This document shows positions 539-57,113 of a stretch of DNA of 64,000 nucleotides, piece after piece. A program made the translations under genes and the position numbers. The DNA is taken from the NCBI RefSeq assembly GCF_009184865.1, contig NZ_CP045096.1:3286001-3350000 (forward strand), in the 5' to 3' direction. Position 1 is the first letter of the stretch. Each line of letters begins with the position of its first letter. Origin of the DNA: Streptomyces phaeolivaceus. Lineage in GTDB: Bacteria; Actinomycetota; Actinomycetes; Streptomycetales; Streptomycetaceae. The notes beneath the pieces are model-generated. The model saw only the letters and a list, made by a program, of their open reading frames with translations. It had not been told where the DNA came from and did not search any database.

Positions 539-1027
539 TCAGCGGGCGCGGGCGCCACTGCGGGTGACGGGCATGGCGAGGGACGTGTGCGCGGACCGGC
601 CTGCGGCGCGGCTCGGCGTGGACGCGGTCCAGGCGCCGGGGAACCAGACGGCGGTGTACTGCTCGATGGCCTCGTGCAGCCCGGTGGTGACGGCTCCCTC
701 CCACGGGGGCCGTCCGGGGCGGTGGTATGTGTCGAAGGTGCCGTGGTGCTTGGTGTTCGGCCGGGTGTTGGTCGCTTCGTCGCGGCGGTGGAACGTGCCG
801 TGGTCGAGGAAGCTGAGGGCGACGGCGTCAGTCTCGCCGTGCTCCGGGTGGACGACCGCCAGGCGCAGGCCGCCGTAGGTGTCCGCGTGGATGGTGCGGG
901 TGAAATCGATGCGCAGCCGCAGCGGTGCGCCGGGGACGGGGGCGGCGAAGTAGGTGTTGCCCACGACGGTGCTGTCGTGGAAGGGGAGGCACAGCTCGGC
1001 GAAGAACTCGGGGGCCTGCAGGGACAA
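539..1027 (-). CDS. Hypothetical protein with Arg-ended tail
   Basis: A 162-aa protein of unrecognised family. The first 115 residues look folded (LRLRIDFTRTIHADTYGG, ALSFLDHGTFHRRD, EAIEQYTAVWFPGAW). The last 30 residues are Ser/Ala/Arg-rich and end in SGARAR, matching the tail seen on many proteins here. The start is TTG, preceded by GGAG and a short pyrimidine-rich spacer, as in several neighbours (5025, 9390, 13511). It lies between two DUF317 genes and probably shares their transcript. I assign no function. Confidence 0.75.
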   Translation of the reverse strand: MSLQAPEFFAELCLPFHDSTVVGNTYFAAPVPGAPLRLRIDFTRTIHADTYGGLRLAVVHPEHGETDAVALSFLDHGTFHRRDEATNTRPNTKHHGTFDTYHRPGRPPWEGAVTTGLHEAIEQYTAVWFPGAWTASTPSRAAGRSAHTSLAMPVTRSGARAR

Positions 1028-1057
1028 GAGGGGTCTCCGGTAGGGGGCGGGCCGGGT

Positions 1058-1915
1058 CTATCGGCGTGGACCGGGCAGGGCCGGTCGGCTGGTGGTGCTC
1101 CAGCGCGGGACGCTGGCCGCGGGGAGCGCGGCCGGGCGGGACGAGAGTGCCCGCTGCACGTCGAGCGGGGTGGGGGCCGGCGGTCCGGGTGGAAGGATCG
1201 GGGTGAGCTGGGCCATGCCCTTGATGTAGCTGAAGGTCTCCTCGCGCCACCGGGGCAGCGGAGCCGGATCGGCGACGCACTCGGTGACGGCGGTGAGCAG
1301 GGCGACGGGCGTGTCGGTGCTGGCCGTGGCGTACCAGACGGGCTGGTCGATGGACTTGCCCGCCCACAGCTGCCAGCGGGCGTCACGTGTGGTCAGTTCG
1401 GTTTCCGGATCGAGGTCGCCGGTGGTGAACTCCATTCCGGCGTGTCCGTCCGGGGCCTGGACCGCGAAGACGCCCCAGCGCGGACGGTCGATCTCCCAGC
1501 CCTGTTTCAGGAGCGGGACGACGGCGAGGAAGGGGTCGTGCTCGTCGGTCCCGGAGACCGGCCGGGCGAGGTAGGTGTCCGGACCCTGCTCGTACGCCGT
1601 GGCGAGGACGGTGGTGAACGCCTGGACGAACTCGGTGGGGACGCGGTCGTTGAAACAGACGCCCCACGCCGGCGTGCCGAACGAGTCCTTGTAGGCGTTG
1701 ATACGCCACAGCCCGTCGTCCTCACCCTCGGGCAGGTAGCCCAGGCGAACGCGCCGGTCGGGAGCGCTCAGGTACACGTTGGAGTCCTCGTCGTACCGAA
1801 GGTCCCAGCCGAGGCCGAGCAGCGGGGCGAGAGCGGGGTCGCCAGTCCCGGTGGTGGAGGCGAGATGGCGCGGGGAGACGTAGACGTCGCCGTAGATCTC
1901 ATTGGTGTCGGGCAC
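1058..1915 (-). CDS. DUF317 domain protein
   Basis: A protein of about 285 aa with two DUF317-type repeats. The first begins at VYVSPRHLA and includes LLGLGWDLRYDEDSNVYL; the second runs through LLKQGWEIDRPRWGVFAVQAP. Each ends in a hydrophobic helix (VQAFTTVLATAYEQ; VALLTAVTECVAD). The tail is Pro/Ala/Ser-rich and ends PGPRR. The only NTG start that keeps the first repeat is GTG at 1915, which has a weak ribosome site, so the start is uncertain. The frame stays open upstream over the HAD gene, but that part is clearly a shadow. Confidence 0.78.
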   Translation of the reverse strand: MPDTNEIYGDVYVSPRHLASTTGTGDPALAPLLGLGWDLRYDEDSNVYLSAPDRRVRLGYLPEGEDDGLWRINAYKDSFGTPAWGVCFNDRVPTEFVQAFTTVLATAYEQGPDTYLARPVSGTDEHDPFLAVVPLLKQGWEIDRPRWGVFAVQAPDGHAGMEFTTGDLDPETELTTRDARWQLWAGKSIDQPVWYATASTDTPVALLTAVTECVADPAPLPRWREETFSYIKGMAQLTPILPPGPPAPTPLDVQRALSSRPAALPAASVPRWSTTSRPALPGPRR

Positions 1916-1961
1916 GAAAGTCCAGGGGGTCGGGGCGGTGGTGGGTGGCGCGGCATGAGTG

Positions 1962-2615
1962 TCAGGCGCAGTGGTTGTTGACCGGGGCGGGCAGCAACTG
2001 CTCTTCCAGATCTGTGGGTTGGCCGGTGTAGTGCAGGGTGCGCAGGCCCAGTTCGGCGGCGGCCTGGCAGTTGTCTTCGCGGTCGTCGACGAACAGCACG
2101 CGTGCTGGGTCGACGATGCCGGTGGCGGCCAGGGCGTGTTCGTACGCGGCCGGGTCGGGCTTGCACCGGCCCAGGCGGGCGGAGTACAGGGCGTCATCCA
2201 TCAGCTCGCGCCGCCAGTCGGTGGCGTCCAGGACGTTGCTGAGGTGGGCCGGGGCGTTGGAGAGCAGCACCATCGTCAGCCCCGCGGCCCGGGCGCGGTA
2301 CAGGATGTCGAGGACGCGCGGGTCGGTGCGGGTCCACATGGCGGTGTCGGCATCGCGCAGGGTGCGCAGCCACCGCGGGCCGGGGTGGTGTCCGAGCACC
2401 TTGGCCCAGTAGGCCAGATCGCTCAGTTCCCCTGCGTCGTACGCGTTGCGGGGAGCCCAGAAGGCGTCCTGGAAAGAGGGGAGATGCCGGTCGGGCCACT
2501 CGGCGAGGTCGGCGAGACGGGTCCACATAGCGGTGCCGGGCTGCAGGCCCAAAACCCCGTTGTAGTCGAGGATCAGGGCGTCCACACCGTTCGGGGAGAC
2601 AGATGTGCTGGTCAA
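1962..2615 (-). CDS. HAD-superfamily hydrolase
   Basis: A 217-aa HAD-fold phosphatase-like protein of normal length. Motif I is LDYNGV (residues 16-21) with Asp17 as candidate nucleophile; the second acidic residue of the usual DxD is replaced by Asn, as in some HAD-IA proteins. Motif II is LLSNAP (Ser119), motif III is Lys152 in GRCKPDPAAYEH, and motif IV is FVDDREDN (175-182). The TTG start overlaps the stop of the upstream transporter gene (TTGA) and has GGAG upstream. It belongs with the ATP-grasp and MFS genes and may dephosphorylate a small-molecule intermediate; the substrate is unknown. Confidence 0.88.
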   Translation of the reverse strand: MTSTSVSPNGVDALILDYNGVLGLQPGTAMWTRLADLAEWPDRHLPSFQDAFWAPRNAYDAGELSDLAYWAKVLGHHPGPRWLRTLRDADTAMWTRTDPRVLDILYRARAAGLTMVLLSNAPAHLSNVLDATDWRRELMDDALYSARLGRCKPDPAAYEHALAATGIVDPARVLFVDDREDNCQAAAELGLRTLHYTGQPTDLEEQLLPAPVNNHCA

Positions 2616-6650: not shown

Positions 6651-7165
6651 GTGACTGGCTCGGGCTCGAACGCCCGGGTGACCTGGGGGTTGCCGGCCAG
6701 CCACTGGATCAGGAAAGCGCGGGGACGGGCGAGGTCCGCCTCGGCCTCGTCGCTGGGCAGGCGCGCGGCGGACGGCCGCGGGAGGCCGTCCGCGCGCTCG
6801 GCCGCGAGCGAGGGCGCCAGGAGGTCGAGGACGTGGCGGATGCGGCTGCTGAACTCGCAGACCGGTGCCGGGTATGCGTGGCGTCGGGCCCAGCGCGCAG
6901 CCGCGTCGTACAGGTCGGCCAACTCCGAGCCCGACTCGGTGAGTTCCAGGCCGGTGCCGGGTGCGGTCCGGACGAGGCCGTGGGCGCGGGCCGCTTCGGC
7001 AGCGCGGCGCAGTTGGTGCGCGGAGAGGTCGGGGAGGGTAGCGGCCAGCCGCCTGGGCGGTATTGCCCCGTTGTCGTCTATCTCGGTGATCAGGCGGATC
7101 AAGGAGCGGGAAGCCAGCAGCTCGACGGCGTTGCGTACTTCGGCAGGGGTGAAGAAGGTGGTCAT
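6647..7165 (-). CDS. Winged-helix regulator
   Basis: A 172-aa DNA-binding protein of HxlR/ArsR-like build. Residues 10-75 read as a winged helix: ELLASRSLIRLITEIDD, then IPPRRLAATLPDLSAHQLRR (recognition-helix region), then a wing with GLELTESGSELADLYDAAARW. The remainder is a helical partner domain. The ATG at 7165 overlaps the upstream stop (ATGA), and the gene in turn overlaps the MFS gene. It is likely the local repressor of the transporter and ligase genes; the effector is unknown. Confidence 0.78.
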   Translation of the reverse strand: MTTFFTPAEVRNAVELLASRSLIRLITEIDDNGAIPPRRLAATLPDLSAHQLRRAAEAARAHGLVRTAPGTGLELTESGSELADLYDAAARWARRHAYPAPVCEFSSRIRHVLDLLAPSLAAERADGLPRPSAARLPSDEAEADLARPRAFLIQWLAGNPQVTRAFEPEPVT

Positions 7166-8004
7166 CGGCGCGGACCTCCCGCCGGGACGGCCGCCTTCGG
7201 GCGGGCGGTCGTGGGATGGGAGAAGAGATCGCGGTTGCGCCACGCGGGAGAGGACTCACCTGTCCGGGCCTGTGGGAGGGTTGCGGGGGCCAGCCGGGAC
7301 TGGCTGCTGACCCACGGCCTCGGCGCGGGCTTCGCCTGCGGGTGCCCCCAGACCGGGTGGTGGGCCGCCTGGTTGAGGGGTTGCCCGGCGGACCACGCGG
7401 ACAGGGCGCCGAGAACGGGGCTCAGGCCGTCGCCCGCCGGGGACAGCCGGTAGGGCCGTCCGAGGCCCTCGGTGTCGACCAGGCCGTCGGCGACGAGCTG
7501 TCGCAGCGGCGGGTACACGTTGGTCCCGTCGCTGCGGGGCATCACGATCCGGGCCAGGGCCCGTCCGCTGACCTCCTCGCGCGTCTTGAGGACCCACAGG
7601 ATGGCGGCGGCGTGGCGCCTGGTGAGCAGGGTGAGGCTGTCCTCGATCTGCTCGATCGCGGGCAGCGGGCGGTCAGCCTTCTCCAGGTGCTCCTCGGCCC
7701 AGGTGACGATCATCGGCAGGACCGGCAGCAGGGCGGCCCCACGCTCGGTGTGGCCGTAGGTCACATGCCGTGCGGTGTGTTCGGTGCGCTCGACGAGCCC
7801 GGCGTCGCACAGCGCCTTGAGCTTCGGGTGGAGCTGGCCGTTCTGCAGCCAGGACACCTTGGCCGCCAGCTCCGTGTAGCGCAGCGGCGGACCGGAGAGT
7901 GCCAGCAGGATCCTCACGTTCCAGCGCGGGGTGATCATGGCGAGGGCTTCGGTGACCCGCGTGATGTCGGCATCGGTGTCAGGCGGCAGAGCGGTGACGG
8001 CCAA
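7162..8004 (-). CDS. Tandem winged-helix (HxlR-like) regulator
   Basis: A 280-aa protein with two winged-helix domains in tandem. The first is around residues 15-95 (ITPRWNVRILLALSG, LRYTELAAKVSWLQNGQLHP, LKALCDAGLVERTEH). The second is around residues 110-185 (LLTRRHAAAILWVLK, GRALARIVMPRSD, LRQLVADGLVDTEG). A low-complexity tail of about 70 residues ends GGPRR. The start is TTG at 8004 behind AGGAG. It is coupled to the next regulator. Two HTH units in one chain suggest binding to a long or repeated operator. Confidence 0.82.
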   Translation of the reverse strand: MAVTALPPDTDADITRVTEALAMITPRWNVRILLALSGPPLRYTELAAKVSWLQNGQLHPKLKALCDAGLVERTEHTARHVTYGHTERGAALLPVLPMIVTWAEEHLEKADRPLPAIEQIEDSLTLLTRRHAAAILWVLKTREEVSGRALARIVMPRSDGTNVYPPLRQLVADGLVDTEGLGRPYRLSPAGDGLSPVLGALSAWSAGQPLNQAAHHPVWGHPQAKPAPRPWVSSQSRLAPATLPQARTGESSPAWRNRDLFSHPTTARPKAAVPAGGPRR

Positions 8005-8044: not shown

Positions 8045-8458
8045 TCAGCGGCTGTGCGCCGTGCTCTGGGCCGGTAGAGGCGGAGCCGGAACGGGCAGCG
8101 AGGGAGTCGGCGGAGACGGCGCTGGGGCCCGGACGCGGGCCAGGCTCTGCAAAACGGCGGTGACCGACTTGGCCTGGACGTCGCGGACTGCGACGGCTTC
8201 GGCGAGCCGCCGGGAGCCGTCGAGAAGGTGGGAGACCTCGTGCCGGCCGATCTGCCGCTCGGTATGGATGAGCCGGGCGAGGTAGTCGCGGTGGAAGTCG
8301 ATGCTGCGCTCGGCGAGAGCGAGGTCGTCGTGCATGCCGAGCAGGGCGGAGAGCATGCCGGGCGGCTGGTCCTGGGCGCGTGCTTCGAGGTCGGCGAGCG
8401 GCGCGCCGTACAGGTCCTCGATCCGTCCGGCTGTCTCGGTGGACGTGAGGTGGGCCAA
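8045..8458 (-). CDS. Helical protein, Arg-ended tail
   Basis: A 137-aa protein of unknown function, predicted almost entirely helical up to residue 105 (DDLALAERSIDFHRDYLARL; SRRLAEAVAVRDVQAKSVTA), then a Pro-rich tail ending TAHSR. The TTG start has GAAAG upstream. Its layout (short head, long helix pair, 'D..Q/A..V' helix, Pro-rich tail) resembles the two genes upstream and the N-terminal half of the gene at 10760-11471, so these look like divergent paralogs. Confidence 0.75.
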   Translation of the reverse strand: MAHLTSTETAGRIEDLYGAPLADLEARAQDQPPGMLSALLGMHDDLALAERSIDFHRDYLARLIHTERQIGRHEVSHLLDGSRRLAEAVAVRDVQAKSVTAVLQSLARVRAPAPSPPTPSLPVPAPPLPAQSTAHSR

Positions 8459-8467: not shown

Positions 8468-8911
8468 TCAGGGTCGGCGGGCCGGGGCCGCCCCGGCACG
8501 CGGGGGTGCCGGGGCGGCGGACGGGGACAGGGGTGCGGTGGCCCTGAGCTGCGTCGTGCGGACCGGTCGGGCCCGCCGGTCGGGCGGAGGCATGGTGCGC
8601 AGCAGTTCGCCGAGGGCGGCGCGGTAGCCGTCGCGGGCATCGAGTGCCGCCTCCAGCCACTGCGCGTCGAAGTGGAGCTTGTCCGCCGACAGCTCGCCCA
8701 TGTCGCGGTCCGGATCCATGTCCGCGTGCACGCGGTCGCGGACGCGGGCGACCTGCCCCTCGGTCAGAGCCAGGAAGGAGCGCAGTTCCAGGGCACGGGC
8801 GAGGGCGGGCGAGGCATCGTGGCCGGCGGCCGTCTCGTACAGCTCCGGGACCGGGTTCCCGAAGACCCTCTGCAGGTCGCCGTCCATGGTGCTGGCCTTG
8901 ACCCGGCTCAA
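8468..8911 (-). CDS. Helical protein, Pro/Arg tail
   Basis: About 147 aa. I prefer TTG at 8911, which overlaps the upstream stop (TTGA) and has AGGAAGG upstream; an ATG at 8887 is the alternative. The helical body (LELRSFLALTEGQVARVRDR; LEAALDARDGYRAALGELLR) resembles the neighbouring helical proteins. The tail is rich in Ala/Pro and ends PARRP. The DNA of the tail (8487-8518) forms a perfect 13-bp hairpin that may also affect the transcript. Function is unknown. Confidence 0.72.
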   Translation of the reverse strand: MSRVKASTMDGDLQRVFGNPVPELYETAAGHDASPALARALELRSFLALTEGQVARVRDRVHADMDPDRDMGELSADKLHFDAQWLEAALDARDGYRAALGELLRTMPPPDRRARPVRTTQLRATAPLSPSAAPAPPRAGAAPARRP

Positions 8912-9390
8912 CGGACGGGCCTTCCTGCCCGCCACGCCGACGCCGGCGCGGGTGTACCCGCTGCTCGGTGGGGAGCGCTGGTCTGGACTGCGGGCCCGGT
9001 TCGGGGGCGAAGGCGGGCGAGCCGTTCGGCGGCGAGGTTCTTCTTGCCCGGAGCGTCCGGGTCGAGGAGCCACCGCACGACCATGGCCCGGCCGTCGCGT
9101 GCGGTGACGGCCGCGTTCACGCGGTGGGCGAGGCCCATCGTCGGGCCGTCGACCTCGCTGGGCTGGGTTTCCAGCGCGGCGAGGAGGTCGTCCTCCGCTC
9201 GGTCGAGCGCCAACTGGGCCTGGACGAGAAGGCCGTGCCACTTGACGATGTCGGTGGCGTCAGGGTTCGCGGTCGGCGCGGCGGCGACCGCGGCCTTCAA
9301 CTGGTTCATGTCCATGCCGAAGTGGGCTTCGATCCGTTCGGTGAGCACGCCCACGACATCCTCGGCGTCATCGGATATGCCGTCGGACAA
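8908..9390 (-). CDS. Helical protein, Arg-ended tail
   Basis: A 160-aa protein starting at TTG behind GGAG. The body is helical (VVGVLTERIEAHFGMDMNQL; LLVQAQLALDRAEDDLLAAL) with an 'AAVTARDGRAMVVRWLLD' segment that lines up with ALDARDGYRAALGELL in the next gene. The tail of about 35 residues is Ala/Pro/Thr-rich and ends GRPVR. It is probably translationally coupled to the downstream gene. No known family is recognised. Confidence 0.73.
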   Translation of the reverse strand: MSDGISDDAEDVVGVLTERIEAHFGMDMNQLKAAVAAAPTANPDATDIVKWHGLLVQAQLALDRAEDDLLAALETQPSEVDGPTMGLAHRVNAAVTARDGRAMVVRWLLDPDAPGKKNLAAERLARLRPRTGPAVQTSAPHRAAGTPAPASAWRAGRPVR

Positions 9391-9992: not shown

Positions 9993-10739
9993 TCAGCGCG
10001 AGCGGCCGGGCGGGCGCGAAGCAGGGGCTTTCGCCACACCGGCGGGGCGGCTGGCTGCGGCTGCCGGGCGGACCGGTGGGAGAGGACCGGCCTCGCCGGT
10101 AAGCCGGTCGTCGCACCACTGCAGGGCCTCGCCCACCGTGTCGAAGCCGCCCTCGCGCAAGGTGTGCGTCCACGCGTCGGTGTCGACCTCCTTGACCACG
10201 ACGCGGAACGGGCTGGGGGCTCGCTCGTCCAGGGCGCGCAGGGCCACGACGGTGACCATGTCGTCCGGGTCGTCGCAGGTGTAGGAGTAGCCCATGGCGT
10301 AGTGGTCGCCGTCGCCCGCGAGGCGTCGCTCCAGCGCACGAGTCGTCTCGTCCGCCGGCGGTGGGCCCAGCTCCGGGTCGAGGCCGATGGCGTCGGGCGG
10401 GCACCCGCGGTGGATGAGCCAGGACTGCGCCATCGCGGGCAGTGGCAGCAGGGCCTGCTCGAAGTCGAACGTCTCCTTCTCCCGGTCCCGCTTCAGGTGA
10501 ATGGCGACGTATTGCGGCATGCCGGGGTGCCCGAGAGTGGCGGTGCGGTCGAAGAGGACGTAGTAGCTGTGCGCGCCGTTGGGGGTGTGGTGTTCGGCGA
10601 GGGGGACGAGCATGTCCTCGCGGACGGCGACCTGGCGGTAGAAGTCGAGGTACATCTCCTCGTCGGCATCGAAGTCGTCCAGCTCGAAGTCGACTTGGGG
10701 GAGGGACTTCCGAGCCGGCGCCGGTTCGGTGGGAGACAA
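9993..10739 (-). CDS. Hypothetical protein, Arg-ended tail
   Basis: A 248-aa protein of unrecognised family. The body is acidic and looks folded (LDDFDADEEMYLDFYRQVAV; HSYYVLFDRTATLGHPGMPQ; DHYAMGYSYTCDDPDDMVTV; GGFDTVGEALQWCDDRL). The last 30 residues are Pro/Ala/Arg-rich and end PGRSR. The start is TTG at 10739 (a TTG-TTG pair) behind GAAAGG at proper spacing. The frame stays open upstream into the N-terminal part of the frameshifted gene at 10760-11471, which is coincidental. Confidence 0.72.
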   Translation of the reverse strand: MSPTEPAPARKSLPQVDFELDDFDADEEMYLDFYRQVAVREDMLVPLAEHHTPNGAHSYYVLFDRTATLGHPGMPQYVAIHLKRDREKETFDFEQALLPLPAMAQSWLIHRGCPPDAIGLDPELGPPPADETTRALERRLAGDGDHYAMGYSYTCDDPDDMVTVVALRALDERAPSPFRVVVKEVDTDAWTHTLREGGFDTVGEALQWCDDRLTGEAGPLPPVRPAAAASRPAGVAKAPASRPPGRSR

Positions 10740-28454: not shown

Positions 28455-28522
28455 GCCAGAACCACCACCCCTGACCCCGCAGGGGTCAACCACCGCCCGC
28501 CTGCACGTCCTTGGAGAACCCT

Positions 28523-43803: not shown

Positions 43804-43979
43804 AGCAGACGGAGCCCGAGTTCTGGGTGCTGGAGTACATCACCATCACCAAGGATCCCCGCAGCAGTCTGGTCGTCGTCATCGGCGGCGCCGAGAAGGC
43901 CGCGGACATCCTCCAGCGAACCGGCGGCCCCACACCGCCGCCGAGCACCGCCCAGCCCTCGGCCTCCCGCAGCCGTTAG
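43800..43979 (+). CDS. Very small protein, Arg-ended tail
   Basis: A 59-aa protein whose ATG overlaps the previous stop (ATGA). It reads MKQTEPEFWVLEYITITKD, SSLVVVIGGAEKAADILQRT, GG, then a Pro/Ser tail ending SASRSR. The A..IL...G core is half of the small alpha/beta domain, followed directly by the tail, so it looks like a truncated module that kept its C-terminal tag. It is too short for many gene finders. Confidence 0.65.
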   Translation: MKQTEPEFWVLEYITITKDPRSSLVVVIGGAEKAADILQRTGGPTPPPSTAQPSASRSR

Positions 43980-46245: not shown

Positions 46246-47063
46246 GCGAACGGCAGCTCGCCGCGTACGCAGACAAGCACGCCGGGCGCATCCCGTTCGA
46301 CACCAGCCCCCGCCACCTCGCCGGCCCCGGAGACGCCCGCCACGTCACCCACGGTCTGGCTGCCGCCGGATGGAGCGCCGTCTCCGACCCCCTGAGTGCC
46401 GAGATCGTCCTGCACAGCCCCGACCTGCGCCACCGCCTCCAGTTCGACCCGCAGTCCACCACCTCCGCGTGGTGGCGGCTGCGGGCGGAGCCCACCGACA
46501 CCGAGCCCGGCTGGTACGCGGAGTTCGGCGAACTCGTGCCCGCCGAGGTCCTCGCCGGCTTCACCGACGCCCTCGTCGTCCCGCCGCCACAGCAGCCGGA
46601 CCCGTGGCACCCGGTGACTGCGGCAGGGTGGCACCGCGACTCAGACGGCACAGCGCGCTCGCCAGACTCCATGTGCCACATCGAACTGCGCCCGCTGAGC
46701 GAATTCCGCGACCTGCCGTCCTGGCACGTCGAGACCCGTGAGCCCGGCCACGGAGAGTTCCACGGCCCGCGCATCTGGCACGCCTACTTCGACGAGCACA
46801 CCCCCGCCCACCTGGTCGAATCGTTCCTCACCGCACTGGCCGACCGTAGCCCGCTCCAGCGCGGCATGTATGACCGCACCGGCCACTACAGCGCCGTGCA
46901 GAAGCCCAGTGCGCTACGCCCGCAGCAGGTGGTCGACGCGCACACCACCCGTATCGACTCCCTCCGCGCACGGGCACGCTCCACCCGCCGTCAGCAGACG
47001 AAACCCGCGACGGCCCCGGCCCCAGCGAACCTCGGCCCAGCCCAGCCGACCGCTCGCCGCTGA
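46236..47063 (+). CDS. DUF317 domain protein
   Basis: A 275-aa protein starting at GTG. It is a very typical DUF317 protein: DTSPRHLAGPGDARHVTHGL, AAAGWSAVSDPLSAEIVLHS, LRAEPTDTEPGWYAEFGELV, LAGFTDALVV; then a second repeat (VTAAGWHRDSDGTARSPDSM; ARIWHAYFDEHTP-like segment; LVESFLTALAD). An Arg/Gln-rich helix precedes the tail, which ends PTARR. Function is unknown. Confidence 0.9.
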   Translation: MALSERQLAAYADKHAGRIPFDTSPRHLAGPGDARHVTHGLAAAGWSAVSDPLSAEIVLHSPDLRHRLQFDPQSTTSAWWRLRAEPTDTEPGWYAEFGELVPAEVLAGFTDALVVPPPQQPDPWHPVTAAGWHRDSDGTARSPDSMCHIELRPLSEFRDLPSWHVETREPGHGEFHGPRIWHAYFDEHTPAHLVESFLTALADRSPLQRGMYDRTGHYSAVQKPSALRPQQVVDAHTTRIDSLRARARSTRRQQTKPATAPAPANLGPAQPTARR

Positions 47064-47744: not shown

Positions 47745-49541
47745 TTGCCCCCTTCCTCCTCCTCGAACGGTTCCACCGACGGATACGACCTCGTCCTGCG
47801 CCTCCTCCTCGGCGTACTCGCGATCGTCGTCCCCCTCGCCCACTTCGCCTGGCTGTCGGGCAACATCACCGCCTACCTCACCGGAGCCGGCTGGGCGCCG
47901 TACCAGCCGACCGCCGCCCTGCTCCACCCCGAGCAGGTCTGGCCCGGTGCGGGAGAAACGTCCCTGCTGATCGGCGCCCGCATCGTGCCCGTCCTTCTGC
48001 TCCTGGCCCTCGGGGTTGTGGTCGGCGTCGTATGGGCCCGGCACAGGAGCCGCAGCGGCGGTCGGAAAAAGAAGATCGCAGACATGGCCAAGGCCCGGGA
48101 CATCGAGCCCCTGATGGCCAGGGCGATCGCCGACAAGGCCCGCTCCCTGCGGCCGAGTCTGAAGGACGCCAAGAACATCGACGCGAAGGACACCGGCATC
48201 CTCCTGGGCAACCTGCAGGGCACCAAGCACGAGGTGCGCATGGGGTTCGAGGACGTCGCCGTTGCGATTATGGCGCCCCGGTCCGGCAAGACGACCTCGC
48301 TCGCGATCCCCTCCATCCTGCACGCCCCGGGCCCGGTGCTGCTCACCAGCAACAAGGCCGCCGGCGATGCCTTCACCACGGCCTACGAAGCGCGGGCGAA
48401 AGCGGGACAGGTGTGGACCATGGACCCGCAGCAGATCGCCCATGCTGCCCGCGAGATGTGGTGGAACCCCCTGGCCGGCGCGACCACCCTGGACGGGGCG
48501 AACCGGCTGGCCGGCCACTTCCTCGCCGCGAGCGTGGATGCGTCCCAGCAGGGAGACTTCTGGTCCAAGGCCGGCAGCAACATCCTGTCCCAGCTGCTCC
48601 TGGCCGCGGCTCTCGACGAGCGGCCGATCACCGACATCATGCAGTGGCTCGCCTTCCCTGCCGACCGGACTCCGCTCGACATCCTCCGTGATCACGGTTT
48701 CGCCGCCGTCGCTGCGCAGTTGAAGGGCACCGTGGAGGGGCCGCCCGAGACCCGCGACGGCATCTACGAGACCGCCCGCCAGTACGCCGCCGCGCTGCTC
48801 AACTCCGAGATCGCGGCCTGGGTGACGCCGCAGGAGGGCGTCCCCGAATTCCAGCCGGCGCAGTTCGTCGGCTCGACCGACACGCTCTTCCTGCTCAGCA
48901 AAGACGGAGGCGGCGGCGCCTCCGCGCTGATCGCGGCGTGCGCGGACTCGGTGATGCGCGCCGCGACCGCCCAGGCCGAACGCGCCGGCGGACGGCTCGA
49001 CCCGCCCATGCTGGCGATCCTCGACGAGGCCGCCAACGTGTGCAAGATCAGCGACTTGCCGGATCTGTATTCGCACCTCGGGTCGCGCGGGATCATTCCG
49101 ATCACGATCCTGCAGTCCTACCGCCAGGGCCAGAAGGTCTGGGGTGACGCCGGCATGGACGCCATGTGGTCCGCCTCGACCGTGAAGGTCATCGGCTCCG
49201 GAATCGACGACCCCGACTTCGCCGACAAGCTCAGCCGCCTGATCGGCGACCACGATGTCGAGACCACCTCGACCTCCCACTCGGAGTCCGGCAAGTCGAC
49301 CTCCGTGTCGATGCGGCAAGAGCGGATCCTGCCCCCCGACGCGATCCGGGCCCTGCCCAAGGGCACCGCGCTGTGCTTCGCCACCGGCATGCGCGCCGCG
49401 ATGCTCGACCTGCGTCCCTGGTACCTGGAGCCCGGCGCTGACGAGCTGTCCGCCGCCTCCGCCCGCGCGTCGAAGGCCATCACCGCCCGCGCCATAGCCA
49501 AGCACGCACCCCAGCAGGGCGACTACGACACGGCCGCCTAA
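47745..49541 (+). CDS. VirD4/TraG-type coupling ATPase
   Basis: A 598-aa type IV coupling protein that recruits substrates to the secretion channel. Two N-terminal membrane helices (LRLLLGVLAIVVPLAHFAWL; LIGARIVPVLLLLALGVVVG) are followed by a P-loop domain with Walker A MAPRSGKTTSLA near 176, a TSNKAAGDAF strand, Walker B MLAILDEAANV near 425, and PITILQSYRQGQKVWG. The start is TTG 47745. It lies 25 kb from the VirB4-like gene. It has no Arg-ended tail, as expected if it is the receptor rather than a substrate. Confidence 0.92.
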   Translation: MPPSSSSNGSTDGYDLVLRLLLGVLAIVVPLAHFAWLSGNITAYLTGAGWAPYQPTAALLHPEQVWPGAGETSLLIGARIVPVLLLLALGVVVGVVWARHRSRSGGRKKKIADMAKARDIEPLMARAIADKARSLRPSLKDAKNIDAKDTGILLGNLQGTKHEVRMGFEDVAVAIMAPRSGKTTSLAIPSILHAPGPVLLTSNKAAGDAFTTAYEARAKAGQVWTMDPQQIAHAAREMWWNPLAGATTLDGANRLAGHFLAASVDASQQGDFWSKAGSNILSQLLLAAALDERPITDIMQWLAFPADRTPLDILRDHGFAAVAAQLKGTVEGPPETRDGIYETARQYAAALLNSEIAAWVTPQEGVPEFQPAQFVGSTDTLFLLSKDGGGGASALIAACADSVMRAATAQAERAGGRLDPPMLAILDEAANVCKISDLPDLYSHLGSRGIIPITILQSYRQGQKVWGDAGMDAMWSASTVKVIGSGIDDPDFADKLSRLIGDHDVETTSTSHSESGKSTSVSMRQERILPPDAIRALPKGTALCFATGMRAAMLDLRPWYLEPGADELSAASARASKAITARAIAKHAPQQGDYDTAA

Positions 49542-49598: not shown

Positions 49599-50197
49599 AT
49601 GGCTCTCACCGATCACCACGACATCTTCATCGGCTCGACCGGCGACGGATGGACCTTCCTCGTCCTCAACCGCCCTCTCCGCAACGCCGCCCGCATCCTG
49701 ACCGGCGCGGGATTCACCGCCCGCGAGCACCAGGGCCGCACCCTCTACCTCCTGCCGCCCGAGACGGCCGAGGACGCGCACGAGCGCGCCGGTGTCGCGG
49801 CCTACGGGCTCATGGCCCACACCCTGGACCTCGTCGACCTGGCCTGGACCACGCGCCAGCACGGCGCCAGCCCGGATGCCCAGCCCCACGTGACCATCCG
49901 CTTCACCGAGCACGCGGTCGCCGCGACCGCGGCCACGGGCCAGGCAGGCGCCGTCCTCGTCCAGTACGGCTTCGTACCAGCGGTGGCCCAGCGGCAGTAC
50001 GCGTGCCGTCCGGACTAGGTAAACGCGACGCCCTCAGCGCTGTTGTCCGTGCCGAGGCCCATCTCTACGCCGACGGCGTCAGCGTGCGCATCGACCTCGG
50101 CATCGCGACCTGGCAGGACATTCCACCGGCGCCATCGCGCCCCGGTGCCGCCCCCGCACCGCCGCCCACCACACCGGTCCAGCGTCGCAGCCGCTGA
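49599..50197 (+). pseudogene. AGF/two-domain paralog with C-terminal frameshift
   Basis: ATG 49599 gives 139 aa: WTFLVLNRPLRNAARILTGA, GFTAREHQGRTLYLLPPETA, PHVTIRFTEHAVAATAATGQ, GAVLVQYGFVPAVAQRQYAC, stopping at 50018. The -1 frame from about 50010 continues as relatives do: GKRDALSAVVRAEAHLYADG, VSVRIDLGIATWQDIP, then a Pro tail ending VQRRSR at 50197. The segment GAVLVQYGF aligns with GAILVTHGF of 43045, whose frame is intact. Indel or base-call error is likely. Confidence 0.65.
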
Positions 50198-50228: not shown

Positions 50229-51092
50229 ATGCGCCAGATCGACCTGCAAGCCGAGGTAGCCCATCTACGGCAACTCGGGAGCGACTTCGAGGACTTGCAC
50301 AGCGAGATCCGCTCGCTCACCCTCACCCCCGGCACCGACGCCCGGCAGCAGCTCACAGCAAAGATCGTGGACACGAACGAGCTGGTCCAACAGGCTATGT
50401 TCCGCCTCGCCGCCCTCGACGGCAGCCAGTACATCGCCGTACCCGGCAGCCGTCCGGCTCTGGAGGCGCTCGCCTCCGTCGTCTCCGCCGCCAGTATCGC
50501 CGCATGCGACTTGGCCTGCGCCTTGGAGGCCAACCCGCTGGAGGGCGCCCCGTTCCCCGGCCCGCCGGGTGCCCCGTTCTCCAACTCGCCGGCTAATGAG
50601 GCAGCCGTGCGCACGGCGCGGCATGCGGAGGCGGTCCCCGCCATGGCGGAGCACCTCGCGAACGCTGCCCACCAGCTCGACCTGGCCTACACCGGCTGCT
50701 ACTACCTCGCCAGCGGCATCACCCGGGACCTGAAGCAGCACGCCGAACAGAACCAGGCGACACCGGCGCCGAAGATCACGATCAGCCAGTACGCCGTCCT
50801 CGCCCGGTTGTCCGCAAGTGGCGGCACCCGCTACGTGATCAGCCGATACGGCGTGCTCAAGGCCAGCGACAAGGACCGGGCCACCGTGAACGTCGCCACC
50901 CTCAACGCCCTGATCAAGCGAGGACTCGTCGAGGTGGACACCACGACATCCCTGCACCAGGGCCAGAGCCTCCACGTCACCGCCGAAGGCCAGCGTGCCC
51001 TCGCCCAGCACAAGCCCACCACAGCCCCCGCCCCAACTGCGGCCGTGACGCCTCCTGCGACCAAGCAGGCCGCCGTGGGACGCACGCGATGA
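50229..51092 (+). CDS. Helical plus winged-helix protein, Arg-ended tail
   Basis: A 287-aa protein starting at ATG behind GGAG. The first 185 residues are helical (IDLQAEVAHLRQLGSDFEDL; ELVQQAMFRLAALDGSQYIA; NAAHQLDLAYTGCYYLASGI). A winged helix follows (ITISQYAVLARLSASGGTRY; VATLNALIKRGLVEVDTTTS; LHVTAEGQRALAQH). The tail ends AVGRTR. The same helical-plus-wing build, broken by a frameshift, is at 10760-11471. It is likely a DNA-binding protein of the element. Confidence 0.78.
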   Translation: MRQIDLQAEVAHLRQLGSDFEDLHSEIRSLTLTPGTDARQQLTAKIVDTNELVQQAMFRLAALDGSQYIAVPGSRPALEALASVVSAASIAACDLACALEANPLEGAPFPGPPGAPFSNSPANEAAVRTARHAEAVPAMAEHLANAAHQLDLAYTGCYYLASGITRDLKQHAEQNQATPAPKITISQYAVLARLSASGGTRYVISRYGVLKASDKDRATVNVATLNALIKRGLVEVDTTTSLHQGQSLHVTAEGQRALAQHKPTTAPAPTAAVTPPATKQAAVGRTR

Positions 51093-52380: not shown

Positions 52381-53276
52381 GTGCCGGTGTCCAGTCCAGC
52401 GCCATGCTCGCCCTCTCCGCACACGGCATACTCCCGAAGGTCGACTACGCAATTTTCGCCGACACGGGCTGGGAACCAAGAGCCGTCTATTCCCATCTCG
52501 ACCGGCTGGAGCGAGAAATAGCCGGACCCGCAGACATACCCATTCTTCGCGTATCATCCGGACACATACGCAAGGATGCCCTGGACCCCGACCACAGATT
52601 TGCGTCCATGCCGCTCTACGTCCTGAACAAGGACGGAAATCCGGGTATGACCAGGCGCCAATGCACCGGGGAATACAAGATCAAGCCGATCAAGAAAAAG
52701 GTCCGCGAACTACTCGGCTACCCCTACCCGGCACGCATTCCCAGGGACGTATTCGTCGAGCAGTGGGTCGGCATCTCCACCGACGAATTCCACCGGGCCA
52801 AGGACGCCGACGTCAAGTACATGCGCAACCGGCACCCGCTCATCGACATGGGCTGGTCACGGTCCGACTGCATCCGCTACCTGACGTCGCTCGGCCTGGC
52901 CGACACCCCGAAATCGAGCTGCCTCGGATGCCCGTTCCACGGAAACGCCCAATGGCGCAATATCCGCGACAACTCCCCGGCGGAATGGGAGGACGTAGTG
53001 GAGTTCGACGCGGCCATCCGCAAGGGAAACGCCCGCGCCAACGCCACCGGCAACCGTCTGCTCGGCGAGGCGTTTCTCCACCGCTCCCGCGTCCCTCTCA
53101 GCGAAGCCCCGATCGATCACGTCACCGCCGCCGAATGGGCAGCGATGCAGCAAGAACTCACCGACAGCGGACCGGACCTTCAGGAGCTGGAACAGGGCGT
53201 CATCGACGGCTGTTCCCCGTGGGCCTGCCGCGGTGAAGTCGAGCCGGTCCAGGACGACTTCGGACTGGCCTCTTGA
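52344..53276 (+). CDS. PAPS-reductase-like PP-loop protein, ATT start
   Basis: About 310 aa. The PP-loop SLGAGVQSSAML sits at residues 11-22; later come IFADTGWEPRAVYSHLDRLE, TRRQCTGEYKIKPIKKKVRE, VEQWVGISTDEFHRAKDADV, and a CLGCPFH cysteine pair. It belongs to the phosphoadenosine-phosphosulfate reductase-like family common in phages and DNA-modification loci. No ATG, GTG, TTG or CTG lies between the ribosome site (AGGA) and the PP-loop; ATT 52344 (or ATC 52341) is in start position. The first ATG would delete the loop. It overlaps the C5 methyltransferase. Confidence 0.82.
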   Translation: MSELPTFRAISLGAGVQSSAMLALSAHGILPKVDYAIFADTGWEPRAVYSHLDRLEREIAGPADIPILRVSSGHIRKDALDPDHRFASMPLYVLNKDGNPGMTRRQCTGEYKIKPIKKKVRELLGYPYPARIPRDVFVEQWVGISTDEFHRAKDADVKYMRNRHPLIDMGWSRSDCIRYLTSLGLADTPKSSCLGCPFHGNAQWRNIRDNSPAEWEDVVEFDAAIRKGNARANATGNRLLGEAFLHRSRVPLSEAPIDHVTAAEWAAMQQELTDSGPDLQELEQGVIDGCSPWACRGEVEPVQDDFGLAS

Positions 53277-54547
53277 CCATCCTGGACCTGTTTGCAGGAC
53301 CGGGGGGATGGAGCCACTCACTTAACGTCCTCGGCGTACGGGACGTGGGCCTGGAATGGGACGAATGGGCCTGCAAAACCCGTACGGCAGCAGGCCAGTT
53401 GACCATTCGCACCGACGTGGCACTGTACCCCGTCTGGCCCTTCCTCGGAAAAACCGCCGGGCTCATCGCGAGCCCTCCCTGCCAGGCATGGTCCATGGCC
53501 GGCAAACGCCTCGGCCTGGTCGACCAGCCCTTGGTCCACCAGGCCGTCGCCGACCTCGCCACCGGCCGCGACACCCGCGAGCAACTCCTGGCCGCCTGCC
53601 GCGACGAGCGCTCCCTGCTGGCGGCCGAGCCGATGCGCTACCTGCATGCCCTCAACACGGTCGGCGAACCGGAGTGGGTGGCCATGGAGGAGGTCCCCGA
53701 CGTGCTGCCGCTGTGGCGCCAGTACGCGGCCGTCCTGCGCGGCTGGGGGTTCTCGGTCTGGTACGGGATCCTCAACGCCGCCGATTTCGGCGTTCCGCAG
53801 ACGCGGAGGCGGGCGATTCTGCTCGCCTCCCGGGTCCGTACGGCACAGCCTCCCACGCCGACGCACTCCCAAGTCGCCGAGCCCGAATCGCTGTTCGGTC
53901 CGGGCCGCGCCCGCTGGGTGAGCATGGCTGAGGCGCTCGGGTGGGGCGCGACCGACCGGCCCGTCCCCACCGTCTGCGCAGGCGGCGGCCCCGGAGGCGG
54001 GCCCGAGCCCTTCCCTTCCGGCTCCCGAAAGACGCTGTCCGATGCCCGGGAGCGCGGCACCTGGATGCCCCGGCCGGACGGAGTGGTTCTGCAGTCCCGC
54101 CGAGAAGGCGCAGGGTGGGCGGCGCGACACGGCACCCGTGAGAACCGTGCCGCCAACGCTCCGGCGCCGACGTTCACCGCCGAGGCCCACCGTTGGTCCT
54201 GGTCGCTGCGCAGCAACAACCAGGCCAACGCCACCATCCGGTCCATCGAGGAGCCGGCGGGAACGCTGTTCTTCGGACACCGCGCGAACGAGTGCACGTG
54301 GGTCGCGGAACCAGCCGCTGCGCCGACACAGGACACGGAAACCCCCGCCGTGCCGGAGCCGATCCGGATCACCGCCCGCGAGGCGGGCCTCCTGCAGACC
54401 TTCCCCGCCGACTACCCCTGGGCCGGCAACAAAGGCCAGGTCTTCGGCCAAATCGGCAACGCGGTCCCACCGTTGCTCGCCGGCCATCTCCTCGCCCCGC
54501 ACCTCGGCGTCACCCTCGACCCCGACGACTTCACCTTGGCTGCCTGA
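53273..54547 (+). CDS. C5-cytosine DNA methyltransferase
   Basis: A 424-aa m5C methyltransferase. It has motif I ILDLFAGPGGWSHSL (3-17), catalytic motif IV SPPCQAWSM (67-75, Cys70), motif VI region WVAMEEVPDVLPLW (usual ENV replaced by EEV), motif VIII VPQTRRRAILLAS, and motifs IX-X ending QIGNAVPPLLAGHLL. The variable target region lies between VIII and IX. The TTG start overlaps the upstream stop (TTGA). No adjacent restriction endonuclease is seen. Confidence 0.92.
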   Translation: MTILDLFAGPGGWSHSLNVLGVRDVGLEWDEWACKTRTAAGQLTIRTDVALYPVWPFLGKTAGLIASPPCQAWSMAGKRLGLVDQPLVHQAVADLATGRDTREQLLAACRDERSLLAAEPMRYLHALNTVGEPEWVAMEEVPDVLPLWRQYAAVLRGWGFSVWYGILNAADFGVPQTRRRAILLASRVRTAQPPTPTHSQVAEPESLFGPGRARWVSMAEALGWGATDRPVPTVCAGGGPGGGPEPFPSGSRKTLSDARERGTWMPRPDGVVLQSRREGAGWAARHGTRENRAANAPAPTFTAEAHRWSWSLRSNNQANATIRSIEEPAGTLFFGHRANECTWVAEPAAAPTQDTETPAVPEPIRITAREAGLLQTFPADYPWAGNKGQVFGQIGNAVPPLLAGHLLAPHLGVTLDPDDFTLAA

Positions 54548-55674
54548 TGCCCCACAGCCCCGAACCGAACAAAGACGACCTCGACGACCTGCCCGACACA
54601 CATCCGCCGCAGCCCGTGCGCTACGCCGAGCAGGCCCTCCTCGGTGCCCTCCTCCTCGACCCGCATCGGCTCGGCGACGTGACCGGGATTACCGCCGACT
54701 CGTTCTCCACCGCCACGCACACCGCCCTGTTCGCCGCGATCAGCGCCCTGCCCCGGCCCGATCCGGCCGAGCACGCGAAGAACACCAAGTGGCTCAACCA
54801 GGTGCTCGCCGCCGGCCGCGAGCAGGCGCGCGGACTGTCCGTCTCATACCTGCACACCCTCATCCAGATCTGCCCCTGGCCCCGCCACGCGCCGGCCTAC
54901 GCGCGGATGGTCGAGGCCGAACACGCCCGCCGCCGTCTGGAGGCCGCCGCGGAACGCCTCGTCCAAACCGTCCACGATGCCTCCCTCCCGCACCCCGTCC
55001 AGACAGTGCTCGCCGAGGCCGACGCGCTCGCCGCGGTCGTGGACGACATCGCGAGCCGCTTCCCTCCGCGCGCCGGCGTCCTGCCCCGCACCACGGCACC
55101 GCCACCGACCATCGCGCCCGACTACACCGAGGCGGTCGAGGAGGAGCAGCTGCTGCTCGCGACTGCCACCGCGCACCCCGCAGATATCGAGTCCCTCCGG
55201 TGGCTGCTCCCCGAGGACTTCAACCGACCGCTGCACGCCGGGCTCTGGCAGTGCCTGACCGCCCTCGCTCGCCGCCGCGAACCCGTCGACCCCGTCACCG
55301 TTCTGTGGGAAGCCCAGCAGCGCGGTCTGCTGGACGACGGAAGTGAACCAGGCGAGGTGCTCCGCCTGCTGGCCGAACCGGCCGGGTCCGTGGAGCACTG
55401 GGGCGAGCGGGCCCTGCAGCGTTCCCTCCTGGCCACCGCCGAACACACCGGCCGGCACATCGAGGCGTACGCCGGCGACCCGGCGAACACCCCGTTCCAG
55501 CTCGTCGTCGGCGCCCGCCGCTCCCTCGCCGACATCGGCGCCGTCCGCACCCGCTGGCAGCACGCCACCGGAACGGTCCCGCCGCCACGACCGCGCCCCG
55601 CACCCACCACCCGTGCCGGCCCGCCGACCACCACAGCCGCGCGCCCCGCCCGCGCCGCGCGAGCAACCCGATAG
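54547..55674 (+). CDS. DnaB N-terminal-domain-like protein without helicase domain
   Basis: A 375-aa protein whose ATG overlaps the methyltransferase stop (TGATG). Two regions resemble the DnaB N-terminal domain: AEQALLGALLLDPHRLGDVT at about 27-46, and EEEQLLLATATAHPADIESL near 198, followed by DFNRPLHAGLWQCLTALARR and WEAQQRGLLDDG. There is no RecA-like ATPase domain (no Walker A). The tail is Pro/Ala/Arg-rich and ends ARATR. It might bind primase or host DnaB; function is inferred from fold resemblance only. Confidence 0.7.
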   Translation: MPHSPEPNKDDLDDLPDTHPPQPVRYAEQALLGALLLDPHRLGDVTGITADSFSTATHTALFAAISALPRPDPAEHAKNTKWLNQVLAAGREQARGLSVSYLHTLIQICPWPRHAPAYARMVEAEHARRRLEAAAERLVQTVHDASLPHPVQTVLAEADALAAVVDDIASRFPPRAGVLPRTTAPPPTIAPDYTEAVEEEQLLLATATAHPADIESLRWLLPEDFNRPLHAGLWQCLTALARRREPVDPVTVLWEAQQRGLLDDGSEPGEVLRLLAEPAGSVEHWGERALQRSLLATAEHTGRHIEAYAGDPANTPFQLVVGARRSLADIGAVRTRWQHATGTVPPPRPRPAPTTRAGPPTTTAARPARAARATR

Positions 55675-55686
55675 CACCCCGCATAC

Positions 55687-55723
55687 GCCGGTGGCCGGAC
55701 CCACCCAAGGCCCGGCCACCGGC
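55687..55723 (+). terminator. Hairpin, probable terminator
   Basis: GCCGGTGGCCGG (55687-55698) pairs perfectly with CCGGCCACCGGC (55712-55723) over a 13-base loop, just after the stop of the DnaB-N-like gene and before the DUF317 gene at 55743. It probably separates the two transcripts, although the next ribosome site follows closely. Confidence 0.6.
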
Positions 55724-55742
55724 AGAAGAGACGACACCCAAC

Positions 55743-57113
55743 GTGACTCCCACCATCGACGCCCACGTCCGCCTCGACACCCACCCCACCCATCCCAGCG
55801 CCGTGACCGCCGTCCTGACCGGCGCCCAGGCACACATCGCCCACCTGGGCCTGGAGGCAGCCGACTGGACCGTCGTCACCGACAACGTCCTGGCCCTGGT
55901 CCGCATCGACCACGAGGAACCCCACTGGGCGCAGGACGCAGCCAAGCACCTGACCGCCGAAGGCATCACCGTCGAGATCACCCCTCGGCTCCAGAAGGCC
56001 ATTGACGAAGAATGGACCTGGGCCAACTACCCGATGCCCTGGTGCACCCGCAGCGAAATCCGCGAAGTCTCCAATCAGGCGCAGAAGATCCACGACGACA
56101 TCCGCCACGGCCACCTCCTCATCCACGCCCACGCCCACGACGGCCACACCACCGTCGCGGTCGGCACCTACCTCCACCGCAACGGCAAGTCCGTCTACCT
56201 CCACGGCGAGGACCACCTGCGGCAAATCGCCGACACCTTCGACTCACCCGCTGGGGCCATGGTCGCCTTCGAGAAGATCCACGGCGCCGAGATGCACCCC
56301 GGCCCGGCGCCTCTGACCGACACCGAACGCGCCGCCGCCGAAGCCCGCACCCCACTCGCCTGCACCGCAGCCAAGCCCGAACCGGCCCGCCCGGAGCCGG
56401 AGACCGTCCCGGCCTACCTGGCCGATGCCGGCGACCACGACGCCATCCTCGACACCTTCCTCGATGCACACGGCGACTGGGAGAAATGGCGCACCTGGTC
56501 CGACGAGACCACCCACGCCATCCACGAATCGCAGACCCTGCGCATCGAGCGGGTCCACGAAGCCCACCCCCGTGAAACCGCCTGGACCGTGGCCGCGTAC
56601 GAGACGCCAGTGTCCGACCGCATGTGGCACCTGACCGCCACGGGCACTGCCCCCGCCCCCATGCTTCAGGCACTGCTGAACCACCTCGCCGACGGTGACG
56701 GATGGGACACCGCCCTGGGGAGCCCCGTTGACGAGAAGACCGTCACCGCCGCCACGAAACCCCTCGCTGACGCCGGATGGCAACACACTGTGGACGGACG
56801 CTGGCTCCGCTGGACGAACGCCTCCCAGGACGCCGGTGTCCAGTTCGACGCCTTCGCCGCCCAGCAACCAAACGGCAGCCTCGCCACCTGGACCATCTGG
56901 GCCGGCCCCACCATCGGCCAGCCCACCTGGACGATCCACGCCTCCCCCTACGCACCCGCCCCCATGATCGCCGACCTGGCCGAGGAACTCGCGCACGGCA
57001 CCGGCACGCGGCGGTTCAACCCCAGCGTCCAGCGGCAGCCTCCGCGTCTCACCGCTACCGCACCGGCCATCGCCACGACCGTCGTCAGACCTCAGGCGAG
57101 CCGAAGTCGCTGA
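55743..57113 (+). CDS. DUF317-related multi-domain protein
   Basis: A 456-aa protein starting at GTG. The N-terminal domain (VRLDTHPTHPSAVTAVLTGA; HIAHLGLEAADWTVVTDNVL; LTAEGITVEITPRLQKAIDE) resembles the small alpha/beta domain of the arrays. The C-terminal half holds DUF317-type repeats (TAWTVAAYETPVSDRMWHLT; PLADAGWQHTVDGRWLRWTN; ATWTIWAGPTIGQPTWTIHA). The tail ends PQASRSR. A strong terminator follows. It joins two families of this element in one chain. Confidence 0.8.
   Translation: MTPTIDAHVRLDTHPTHPSAVTAVLTGAQAHIAHLGLEAADWTVVTDNVLALVRIDHEEPHWAQDAAKHLTAEGITVEITPRLQKAIDEEWTWANYPMPWCTRSEIREVSNQAQKIHDDIRHGHLLIHAHAHDGHTTVAVGTYLHRNGKSVYLHGEDHLRQIADTFDSPAGAMVAFEKIHGAEMHPGPAPLTDTERAAAEARTPLACTAAKPEPARPEPETVPAYLADAGDHDAILDTFLDAHGDWEKWRTWSDETTHAIHESQTLRIERVHEAHPRETAWTVAAYETPVSDRMWHLTATGTAPAPMLQALLNHLADGDGWDTALGSPVDEKTVTAATKPLADAGWQHTVDGRWLRWTNASQDAGVQFDAFAAQQPNGSLATWTIWAGPTIGQPTWTIHASPYAPAPMIADLAEELAHGTGTRRFNPSVQRQPPRLTATAPAIATTVVRPQASRSR

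Follow-up and report, generated by a model that had tools for sequence, protein, structure and literature searches.

The window analysed here, a stretch of 64,000 nucleotides from Streptomyces phaeolivaceus (C2:3286001-3350000), encodes the components of a type IV secretion system (T4SS) together with many proteins of various families that end in arginine, most often behind a segment rich in proline, alanine and threonine (P/A/T). These C-terminal tails and the role that they may play in conjugation are the subject of this work. A first description of this DNA made without database searches, referred to below as the sequence-only reading, took the replicon as separate from the host chromosome. 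This was wrong: the stretch sits within the 10.1 Mb chromosome C2 and a plasmid location is rejected, the same genome also having a 59 kb plasmid. The nearest relatives of the window in sequence searches are Streptomyces. Its T4SS gene set comprises an NlpC/P60 hydrolase, a DUF6112 protein, a VirB6-like protein, a relative of the SCO6880 family, a VirB4-like ATPase and a coupling protein of the VirD4/TraG family. Among the genes typical of T4SS-type integrative and conjugative elements (ICEs), the window has a coupling protein, above the Pfam cut-off, and a VirB4-like ATPase, detected through a weak AAA_10 match below it. Since the nearest relaxase gene found, for a MobP relaxase ending SSKTR, is located some 39 kb left of the window (C2:3245743-3247437) and a tyrosine integrase gene (C2:3365931) follows 16 kb beyond its right edge, the stretch probably represents the middle part of a large ICE. 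A tRNA-Arg call (L013:4338-4423) falls within a called gene. Two long transposase genes, 36537-37733 and 57382-59046, are located in the element or at its edge.

Each of the 29 C-terminal strings listed in the sequence-only reading terminates an open reading frame close to the position assigned to it, and 26 of them end genes accepted by an independent gene caller based on codon usage. The other three correspond to short frames that were not called (23687 and 30630) and to a region where another frame was chosen (49599). On two plasmid stretches for which public gene tables exist, this caller recovered 37/41 and 26/32 of the tabulated stops, with 3 and 0 extra calls (coding sequences of about 60 amino acids or more, cut ones excluded). 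The two tailed gene remnants also exist as open frames, at 27190 (...PPATARR, 40 codons) and 51206 (...TPGPRR, 37 codons), and three R-ended genes of at least 60 amino acids, 32304, 41062 and 45889, have to be added to the list. The tail is absent, as was claimed, from the products of the T4SS genes, from the coupling ATPase and the hydrolase, and from the transporters, methylases and transposases, the loose case being the DUF6112 gene 15295, which ends in R without a P/A/T tail. The claim that the tailed proteins have different folds holds in part: they form many separate families, but some are paralogues (four DUF317 genes; 43045 and 27762) and this paralogy inflates the raw tail count. The three relatives of the gene at 49599 end ANRRAR, QVQRHR and APRRTR; relative to them, the gene at 49599-50197 may be frameshifted or mis-started.

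An equal tail frequency in the host chromosome, which had been set as the refuter of a specific signal, was not seen. Arginine at the last position (-1) is found in 29 of the 67 window proteins of at least 60 amino acids versus 79 of the 667 proteins from 41 chromosomal stretches (Fisher p about 2e-9). The difference is larger when a P/A/T content of at least 40% at -21 to -7 is also required (25/67 versus 20/667, p about 9e-17). In 2000 length-matched chromosomal draws, the mean was 8.8 and the maximum 25, and 29 was never reached. Arginine at -1 occurs in 30/191 proteins of ten flanking stretches and in 9/60 proteins of the plasmid. Lysine at -1 shows no excess (3/67 in the window versus 28/667 in the chromosome).

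It could be argued that GC-rich genomes yield disordered ends rich in proline, alanine and arginine, and that element genes are simply more disordered. The tails are indeed P/A/T-rich throughout the elements, and arginine at -1 in the chromosome (11.8%) exceeds its bulk frequency of 8%. However, when proteins are binned by P/A/T content at -21 to -7 (0.4-0.5, 0.5-0.6 and at least 0.6), arginine at -1 is found in 14/108, 2/16 and 4/17 of the chromosomal proteins (12-13% outside the richest bin) versus 64/163, 48/89 and 156/205 (39%, 54% and 76%) in the element set (sixteen regions, 893 proteins). Among P/A/T-rich ends as a whole, 59% carry it in elements versus 14% in the chromosome. Furthermore, the excess is restricted to the last four residues: in element ends with a P/A/T content of at least 0.4, arginine reaches 59, 24, 35 and 23% at -1 to -4 and becomes chromosome-like from -5. 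Aspartate and glutamate are depleted in elements; at -1 to -4 of the same ends acidic residues are scarce and lysine amounts to 1-2%. Families also divide into tailed and untailed ones, and five of six relaxases encoded by plasmid stretches of 63-69% GC end in arginine, several of them without P/A/T richness. The competing explanation put forward by the sequence-only reading, a high-GC bias towards Pro/Ala/Arg disorder, is therefore ruled out by P/A/T matching (156/205 versus 4/17), and an artefact of composition retains a very low probability.

Selection acts at the protein level, because every one of the six arginine codons occurs at -1, with CGC the commonest as in gene bodies. No DNA- or codon-level signal was seen beyond a mild excess of CGA (16% at -1 versus 6.5% in gene bodies). 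As CGA before TGA makes an overlapping ATG, this excess could point to an effect of stop-codon context or translational coupling at the gene 3' end; in the same way, Arg-rich ends can bind nucleic acid. Such explanations are hardly credible, given this codon usage, the low number of tailed window genes that overlap the next start (only 4/26), the arginines that are usually few and placed at the very end, and the lack of tag on the DNA methylases of the 12756 type (0/13) and on most MobC proteins.

The distribution of the tail depends on the family. Among the 52 families found in at least four of the sixteen regions, arginine at -1 is present in at most 20% of the members for 23 families and in at least 80% for 15. 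An initial single-linkage clustering chained relaxases with small proteins and was replaced by a stricter one; in the first clustering, 44 of the 49 DUF317 proteins end in arginine. Terminal arginine is rare in the machine components (17799 type, coupling protein, VirB6-like and NlpC/P60 families; Table 1), with the VirB4-like and DUF6112 families as exceptions. A few families are R-ended without a P/A/T linker (41062 type, 7/8). Shared descent as the sole cause is rejected, since the tailed families are many and form separate clusters in an all-against-all comparison of their bodies.

In AlphaFold models of 42343 and 43045, a confident body is followed by about 30 low-confidence residues, so that the tail lies outside the folded domain. 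No structure in the PDB matches the bodies of two tailed families at E ≤ 0.001, none of ten tailed proteins is named above cut-off by NCBIfam, and Pfam scans of the tailed window proteins give no match to a BID-type family. The tail of the DUF317 proteins is an add-on, since copies found elsewhere mostly stop directly after the domain: among 27 copies outside the fetched neighbourhoods of coupling-protein genes (two being fragments of one gene pair), two are R-ended, one of these two being tailed. These copies are unusable as a T4SS-free control, many of them adjoining relaxases, and establish no more than that the DUF317 fold does not include the tail. The window's own genome holds an untailed DUF317 subfamily (C2:4805096, 5748608, 5832230, 5553270). 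Those at 5.55, 5.75 and 5.83 Mb adjoin MobP relaxase matches, which suggests further mobilisable elements in the chromosome.

Table 1. Features of the window, with the C-terminal residues of their products and the occurrence of arginine at -1 (R) in the corresponding families
Feature	Position	Strand	C-terminus	Remarks
Tailed protein	539..1027	-	GARAR	No Pfam family
Tailed DUF317 (SPDY) protein	1058..1915	-	PGPRR	
Tailed HxlR-type helix-turn-helix protein	7162..8004	-	GGPRR	R in 8/8
Tailed protein	8045..8458	-	TAHSR	
Tailed protein	8908..9354	-	GRPVR	
Tailed protein	9993..10739	-	PGRSR	R in 8/12
Tailed protein	10760..11188	-	PAQRR	
Tailed protein	11490..11975	-	HHHTR	RelE/ParE-like by eye, no Pfam match; R in 8/9; overlaps untailed DUF4913 gene 11972-12517
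N6/N4 DNA methylase	12756..13511	-	QDDVTLTV	Untailed, R in 0/13; second C-terminal motif
T4SS NlpC/P60 hydrolase	14025..15155	+		Untailed, R in 0/16
DUF6112 small protein	15295..15609	+	R	No P/A/T tail; R in 3/16
T4SS VirB6/TrbL-like protein	16338..17717	+		Weak Pfam match; untailed, R in 0/16
T4SS-linked protein	17799..19271	+		Weak EccE match, relative annotated SCO6880 family; untailed, R in 0/20
T4SS VirB4-like ATPase	21031..22515	+		Weak AAA_10 match; family mostly untailed, R in 3/20, tail in 1/20
Tailed protein	23087..23653	+	GGRHR	
Tailed protein	23997..24839	+	PRRTR	
Tailed protein	25053..25832	+	RARTR	
Tailed protein	27762..28454	+	KGMGR	
Tailed protein	28511..29113	+	PATRR	R in 5/5
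Tailed protein	29985..30392	+	QPNRR	
Tailed protein	31166..32266	+	PARHR	R in 4/5
Tailed AAA_5 ATPase	32720..33871	+	RGRSR	Presumably MoxR-like; R in 4/4
Tailed protein	33868..35667	+	IRRTR	Weak VWA match; R in 3/4
Relaxase-like protein without HxH	41484..42329	+	HRSP	By relatives, no Pfam match; precedes tailed 42343
Tailed protein	42343..43002	+	PRRHR	Folded body 1-183, low-confidence tail; domain fused to relaxase-like domain in other elements
Tailed protein	43045..43803	+	ATRAR	Folded body to about 222, low-confidence tail
Small tailed protein (59 amino acids)	43800..43979	+	ASRSR	
Tailed protein	44679..45062	+	IRRHR	R in 5/6
Tailed DUF317 protein	45059..45862	+	ARTRR	
Tailed DUF317 protein	46236..47063	+	PTARR	
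T4SS coupling protein, TraG/VirD4 family	47745..49541	+	GDYDTAA	Untailed, R in 1/20
Tail region	49599..50197	+	QRRSR	Gene caller prefers other frame, 49599-50018
Tailed protein	50229..51092	+	VGRTR	
Untailed protein	52608..53276	+	QDDFGLAS	Second C-terminal motif
C5 DNA methylase	53495..54547	+	PDDFTLAA	Untailed; second C-terminal motif
Tailed DnaB-N-domain protein	54547..55674	+	RATR	R in 7/15
Tailed DUF317 protein	55743..57113	+	ASRSR	
Putative pseudo-relaxases, alone or fused to tailed domain	41484-42329; L097:11879-13198; L111:7075-8343; L114:4435-5694; L117:13466-14716			
D-D-F-x-L-A-A motif sites	12756-13511, 52608-53276, 53495-54547, 47745-49541			Also in related elements

The tail pattern recurs in other elements. 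Of the 297 genomes from the same family, 145 encode a relative of the coupling protein (E ≤ 1e-40), and 60 kb around its gene were fetched for 18 elements, hand-picked from a longer list, as were the control stretches and the plasmid relaxases considered below. In 15 elements the coupling protein either has an identity of 60% or more or falls into a short class with about 70% identity; of these, 14 show the pattern, with arginine at -1 in 21-56% of their genes and 9-27 genes combining it with a P/A/T-rich end. Tailed genes thin out towards most edges of the fetched regions. Six control stretches from the same genomes include 7/93 proteins with arginine at -1, and none (0/93) with both features. 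A second element of the window's own genome (5.94-5.98 Mb) gives 12/39; for the two remaining coupling-protein loci of its chromosome, and for its plasmid, the count is none to one per stretch. Like ends (GRSR, SRTR, GPRR, GRPR, GRGR) are also encoded by the annotated plasmid p1 of Streptomyces angustmyceticus.

Relaxases are established substrates of T4SSs. They were examined because a T4SS tag should occur on the relaxase, and MobP relaxases do end in arginine almost without exception: 32/33 matches related to that of L209, 116 of the best 120 among 3853 public proteins and 76 of 79 detected among the best 80 of 420 GTDB loci. The same is true for 17 of 18 plasmid relaxases (sets of 12/12 and 5/6), chosen from a spread list of 45 listed of 285 records and covering 13 actinobacterial genera (Streptomyces, Streptosporangium, Saccharothrix, Nocardiopsis, Pseudarthrobacter, Arthrobacter, Citricoccus, Cellulomonas, Cryobacterium, Yimella, Gordonia, Rhodococcus and Nocardia). 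The ends of these plasmid relaxases are otherwise very unlike each other (e.g., PDIER, GPGQDR, RPRR, TPYR), and the one from Nocardia (L337) ends in L. MobC, the operon partner of the relaxase, or the gene in its place, has an R end in 17/76 and 5/20 cases. On the plasmid L211, whose coupling protein belongs to the 53% class, the relaxase ends RRPRR and 6 of the 33 listed proteins are R-ended; a tag kept on the relaxase is expected if the tag is old and has multiplied only in some elements.

Some neighbours of the relaxase share this end. For example, 40 of 42 relatives of an unnamed protein encoded beside the MobP relaxase of Streptomyces plasmids (L332:8356-9498, L211:17213-18367), which has no Pfam family above cut-off, are R-ended, and genes in the corresponding place in other genera often are as well. 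Among the best 120 of 1018 relatives of Fic proteins, an R end is found in 48/71 of those with at least 235 amino acids versus 16/49 of the shorter ones. The plasmid of Cellulomonas sp. C5510 carries a Fic/VbhA-type toxin-antitoxin pair (L335:28985-29925) about 1 kb from MobC and the relaxase; the Fic protein adjoining the VbhA-type antitoxin ends LDLER, and a zeta toxin ends DPAVER.

A link with relaxases also appears at 42343. In four elements, a tailed domain of the 42343 type (e.g., 58% identity over 220 residues) follows a relaxase-like domain within one fused protein. Alignments connect the latter with standalone relaxase-like proteins (about 36%, E 3e-20), and these in turn with relaxase N-termini (about 35%, E 1e-21). 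These relaxase-like proteins lack the relaxase motif HxH, so that they look like pseudo-relaxases; Pfam gives no match for them. In the window, the two parts of the fusion are neighbouring genes, 41484 and 42343; a relative in G217 and a shared motif region suggest that 41484 corresponds to the same relaxase-like domain.

A second motif, close to D-D-F-x-L-A-A, is found at the very end of 24/893 element proteins versus 0/667 chromosomal ones. It is carried by DNA methylases, a WhiB-like protein (assigned by eye), the coupling protein and 52608-type proteins, and resembles the end of the ssrA degron. Its presence in the same elements could suggest that C-terminal ends tune stability, the terminal arginine shielding proteins from ClpXP-type proteases or being read by another host factor and the ssrA-like end speeding the decay of methylases and of the coupling protein. 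Such a stability tag would leave unexplained both the preference for arginine over lysine and the presence of the tag on relaxases of 13 genera and not on most other proteins examined on the same plasmids; only a slight chance can be granted to it.

These data make it probable that the tail is a C-terminal short linear signal marking the substrates of the conjugative T4SS of the element. The interpretation of the sequence-only reading, according to which the tailed proteins are bound or exported by this T4SS, is likewise supported by the sequence comparisons, because, in the actinobacterial sets sampled, relaxases are nearly always R-ended, MobC proteins in about a quarter of cases and machine parts rarely. 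The signal would consist of a disordered Pro/Ala/Thr-rich linker followed by arginine at -1, often with more arginines at -2 to -4. It presumably arose on the relaxase, which the T4SS must engage to pilot DNA out, and could then have spread within this element family, each element now having it on some 10 to 25 additional genes (about 20 families in the window). The coupling ATPase (47745-49541), proposed here as the receptor, or a factor bound to it would most likely recognise the terminal arginine and its carboxylate, while the linker would let the tag reach the receptor and begin threading. The tagged DUF317, helix-turn-helix, AAA/VWA-like, DnaB-N and toxin-like proteins, along with many uncharacterised ones, could thus be delivered together with the DNA and prepare or subdue the recipient.

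The main rival is recruitment without export, the arginine end docking proteins on the coupling protein, the relaxosome or another hub encoded by the element, for the regulation or assembly of transfer, without their leaving the donor. In favour of it, some tailed proteins resemble regulators (HxlR-type helix-turn-helix) or ATPase partners (AAA_5 and VWA-like), and there is the fusion of a tailed domain with a relaxase-like domain devoid of HxH. However, relaxases and many Fic proteins are tagged, and other systems do export relaxases and at least one Fic toxin, whereas MobC, taken as a part of the donor relaxosome, is mostly untagged. Docking in the donor appears unlikely on these grounds, although the sequence data do not separate it from export.

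Several observations weigh against a tag read by the T4SS. There is no PF03432 or TrwC relaxase inside the 64-kb window, and terminal arginine is lacking in the MobF relaxase of the host's own plasmid and in the relaxases of L225 (F), L209 (H), P0014, P0024 (a partial record), P0103, P0108, L281, L290, L308 and the Nocardia plasmid L337. R ends exceed the chromosomal level of 12% in MobC, at 22-25%, and in the VirB4-like proteins, with 3/20. On the Cellulomonas plasmid, 18 of the 89 coding sequences examined are R-ended, including unrelated metabolic and membrane proteins. The element of G069 has a coupling protein of 65% identity and only two genes with R and a P/A/T-rich end. Tail clusters are missing from the loci whose coupling proteins show 53% and 45% identity (0 such genes in G278, 1 in G250 and 2 in G257), so that a T4SS alone is insufficient for tails. 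A DUF317 gene of G056 is tailed where no coupling protein was found at E ≤ 1e-40, relaxase homologues being present. Moreover, relatedness among sequences inflates some of the counts, and the relaxase sets overlap in part.

More tentatively, and without quite reaching an even chance, the signal could be part of a general actinobacterial export code, in which the T4SS coupling complex recognises a C-terminal arginine with its free carboxylate. With such a code, elements of the window type would send 10 to 25 different proteins (toxins, regulators and establishment factors among them) with their DNA, and the exported set could be read from the sequence. Should the tail prove to be the proposed signal, many uncharacterised proteins (DUF317 and others without Pfam family) would become predicted effectors delivered by conjugation, and protein export by Gram-positive T4SSs could be tested by one reporter assay in Streptomyces.

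The sequence-only reading likened the tails to the transport signal of Agrobacterium; the likeness holds for the type of signal, basic and C-terminal, and not for the sequence, arginine being fixed here at the last residue. The Agrobacterium VirB/D4 substrates (VirF, VirE2, VirE3, VirD5) share a C-terminal arginine motif, and several unrelated substrates thus carry a short, basic end as in the window (PMC10025392). Here, the arginine mostly stands behind a P/A/T linker, the hosts are actinomycetes, and the tail is found on relaxases and in about 20 window families. The Xanthomonas X-T4SS effectors also have a C-terminal module that interacts with VirD4, the XVIPCD (PMC10025392), but this module spans about 120 residues whereas the tail amounts to a few residues on a linker.

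Conjugation systems can translocate many plasmid proteins, which may aid establishment in the recipient, as described for the F plasmid pED208 (PMC11288057). The characterised chromosomal substrates of that system carry C-terminal or internal signals of several types (PMC11288057), unlike the set proposed here, which is marked by one visible end motif. In Bartonella, the Fic toxin VbhT is exported with a relaxase-derived signal, one that it has in common with the conjugative relaxase (PMC5675462). This signal is the BID domain, while in actinobacteria an Arg-ended tail is all that Fic proteins and relaxases share.

The element is probably of the same sort as the actinobacterial T4SS-type ICEs (PMC3218068), including those of Streptomyces (PMC9513070), which have a coupling protein, a VirB4-like ATPase, a relaxase and an integrase. 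C-terminal tails are not mentioned in the passages of these two papers considered here, and the word "C-terminal" is absent from the main text of PMC3218068. Among the open-licence papers listed in literature searches, no title or abstract opening describes a terminal-arginine tag on actinobacterial T4SS substrates. According to a paper on conjugative effectors, the C-terminal signals of most T4SS machineries are basic, very short and notoriously hard to predict (PMC5675462), whereas the signal proposed here may be recognisable by eye, both on the relaxases of 13 actinobacterial genera and on many unnamed families.

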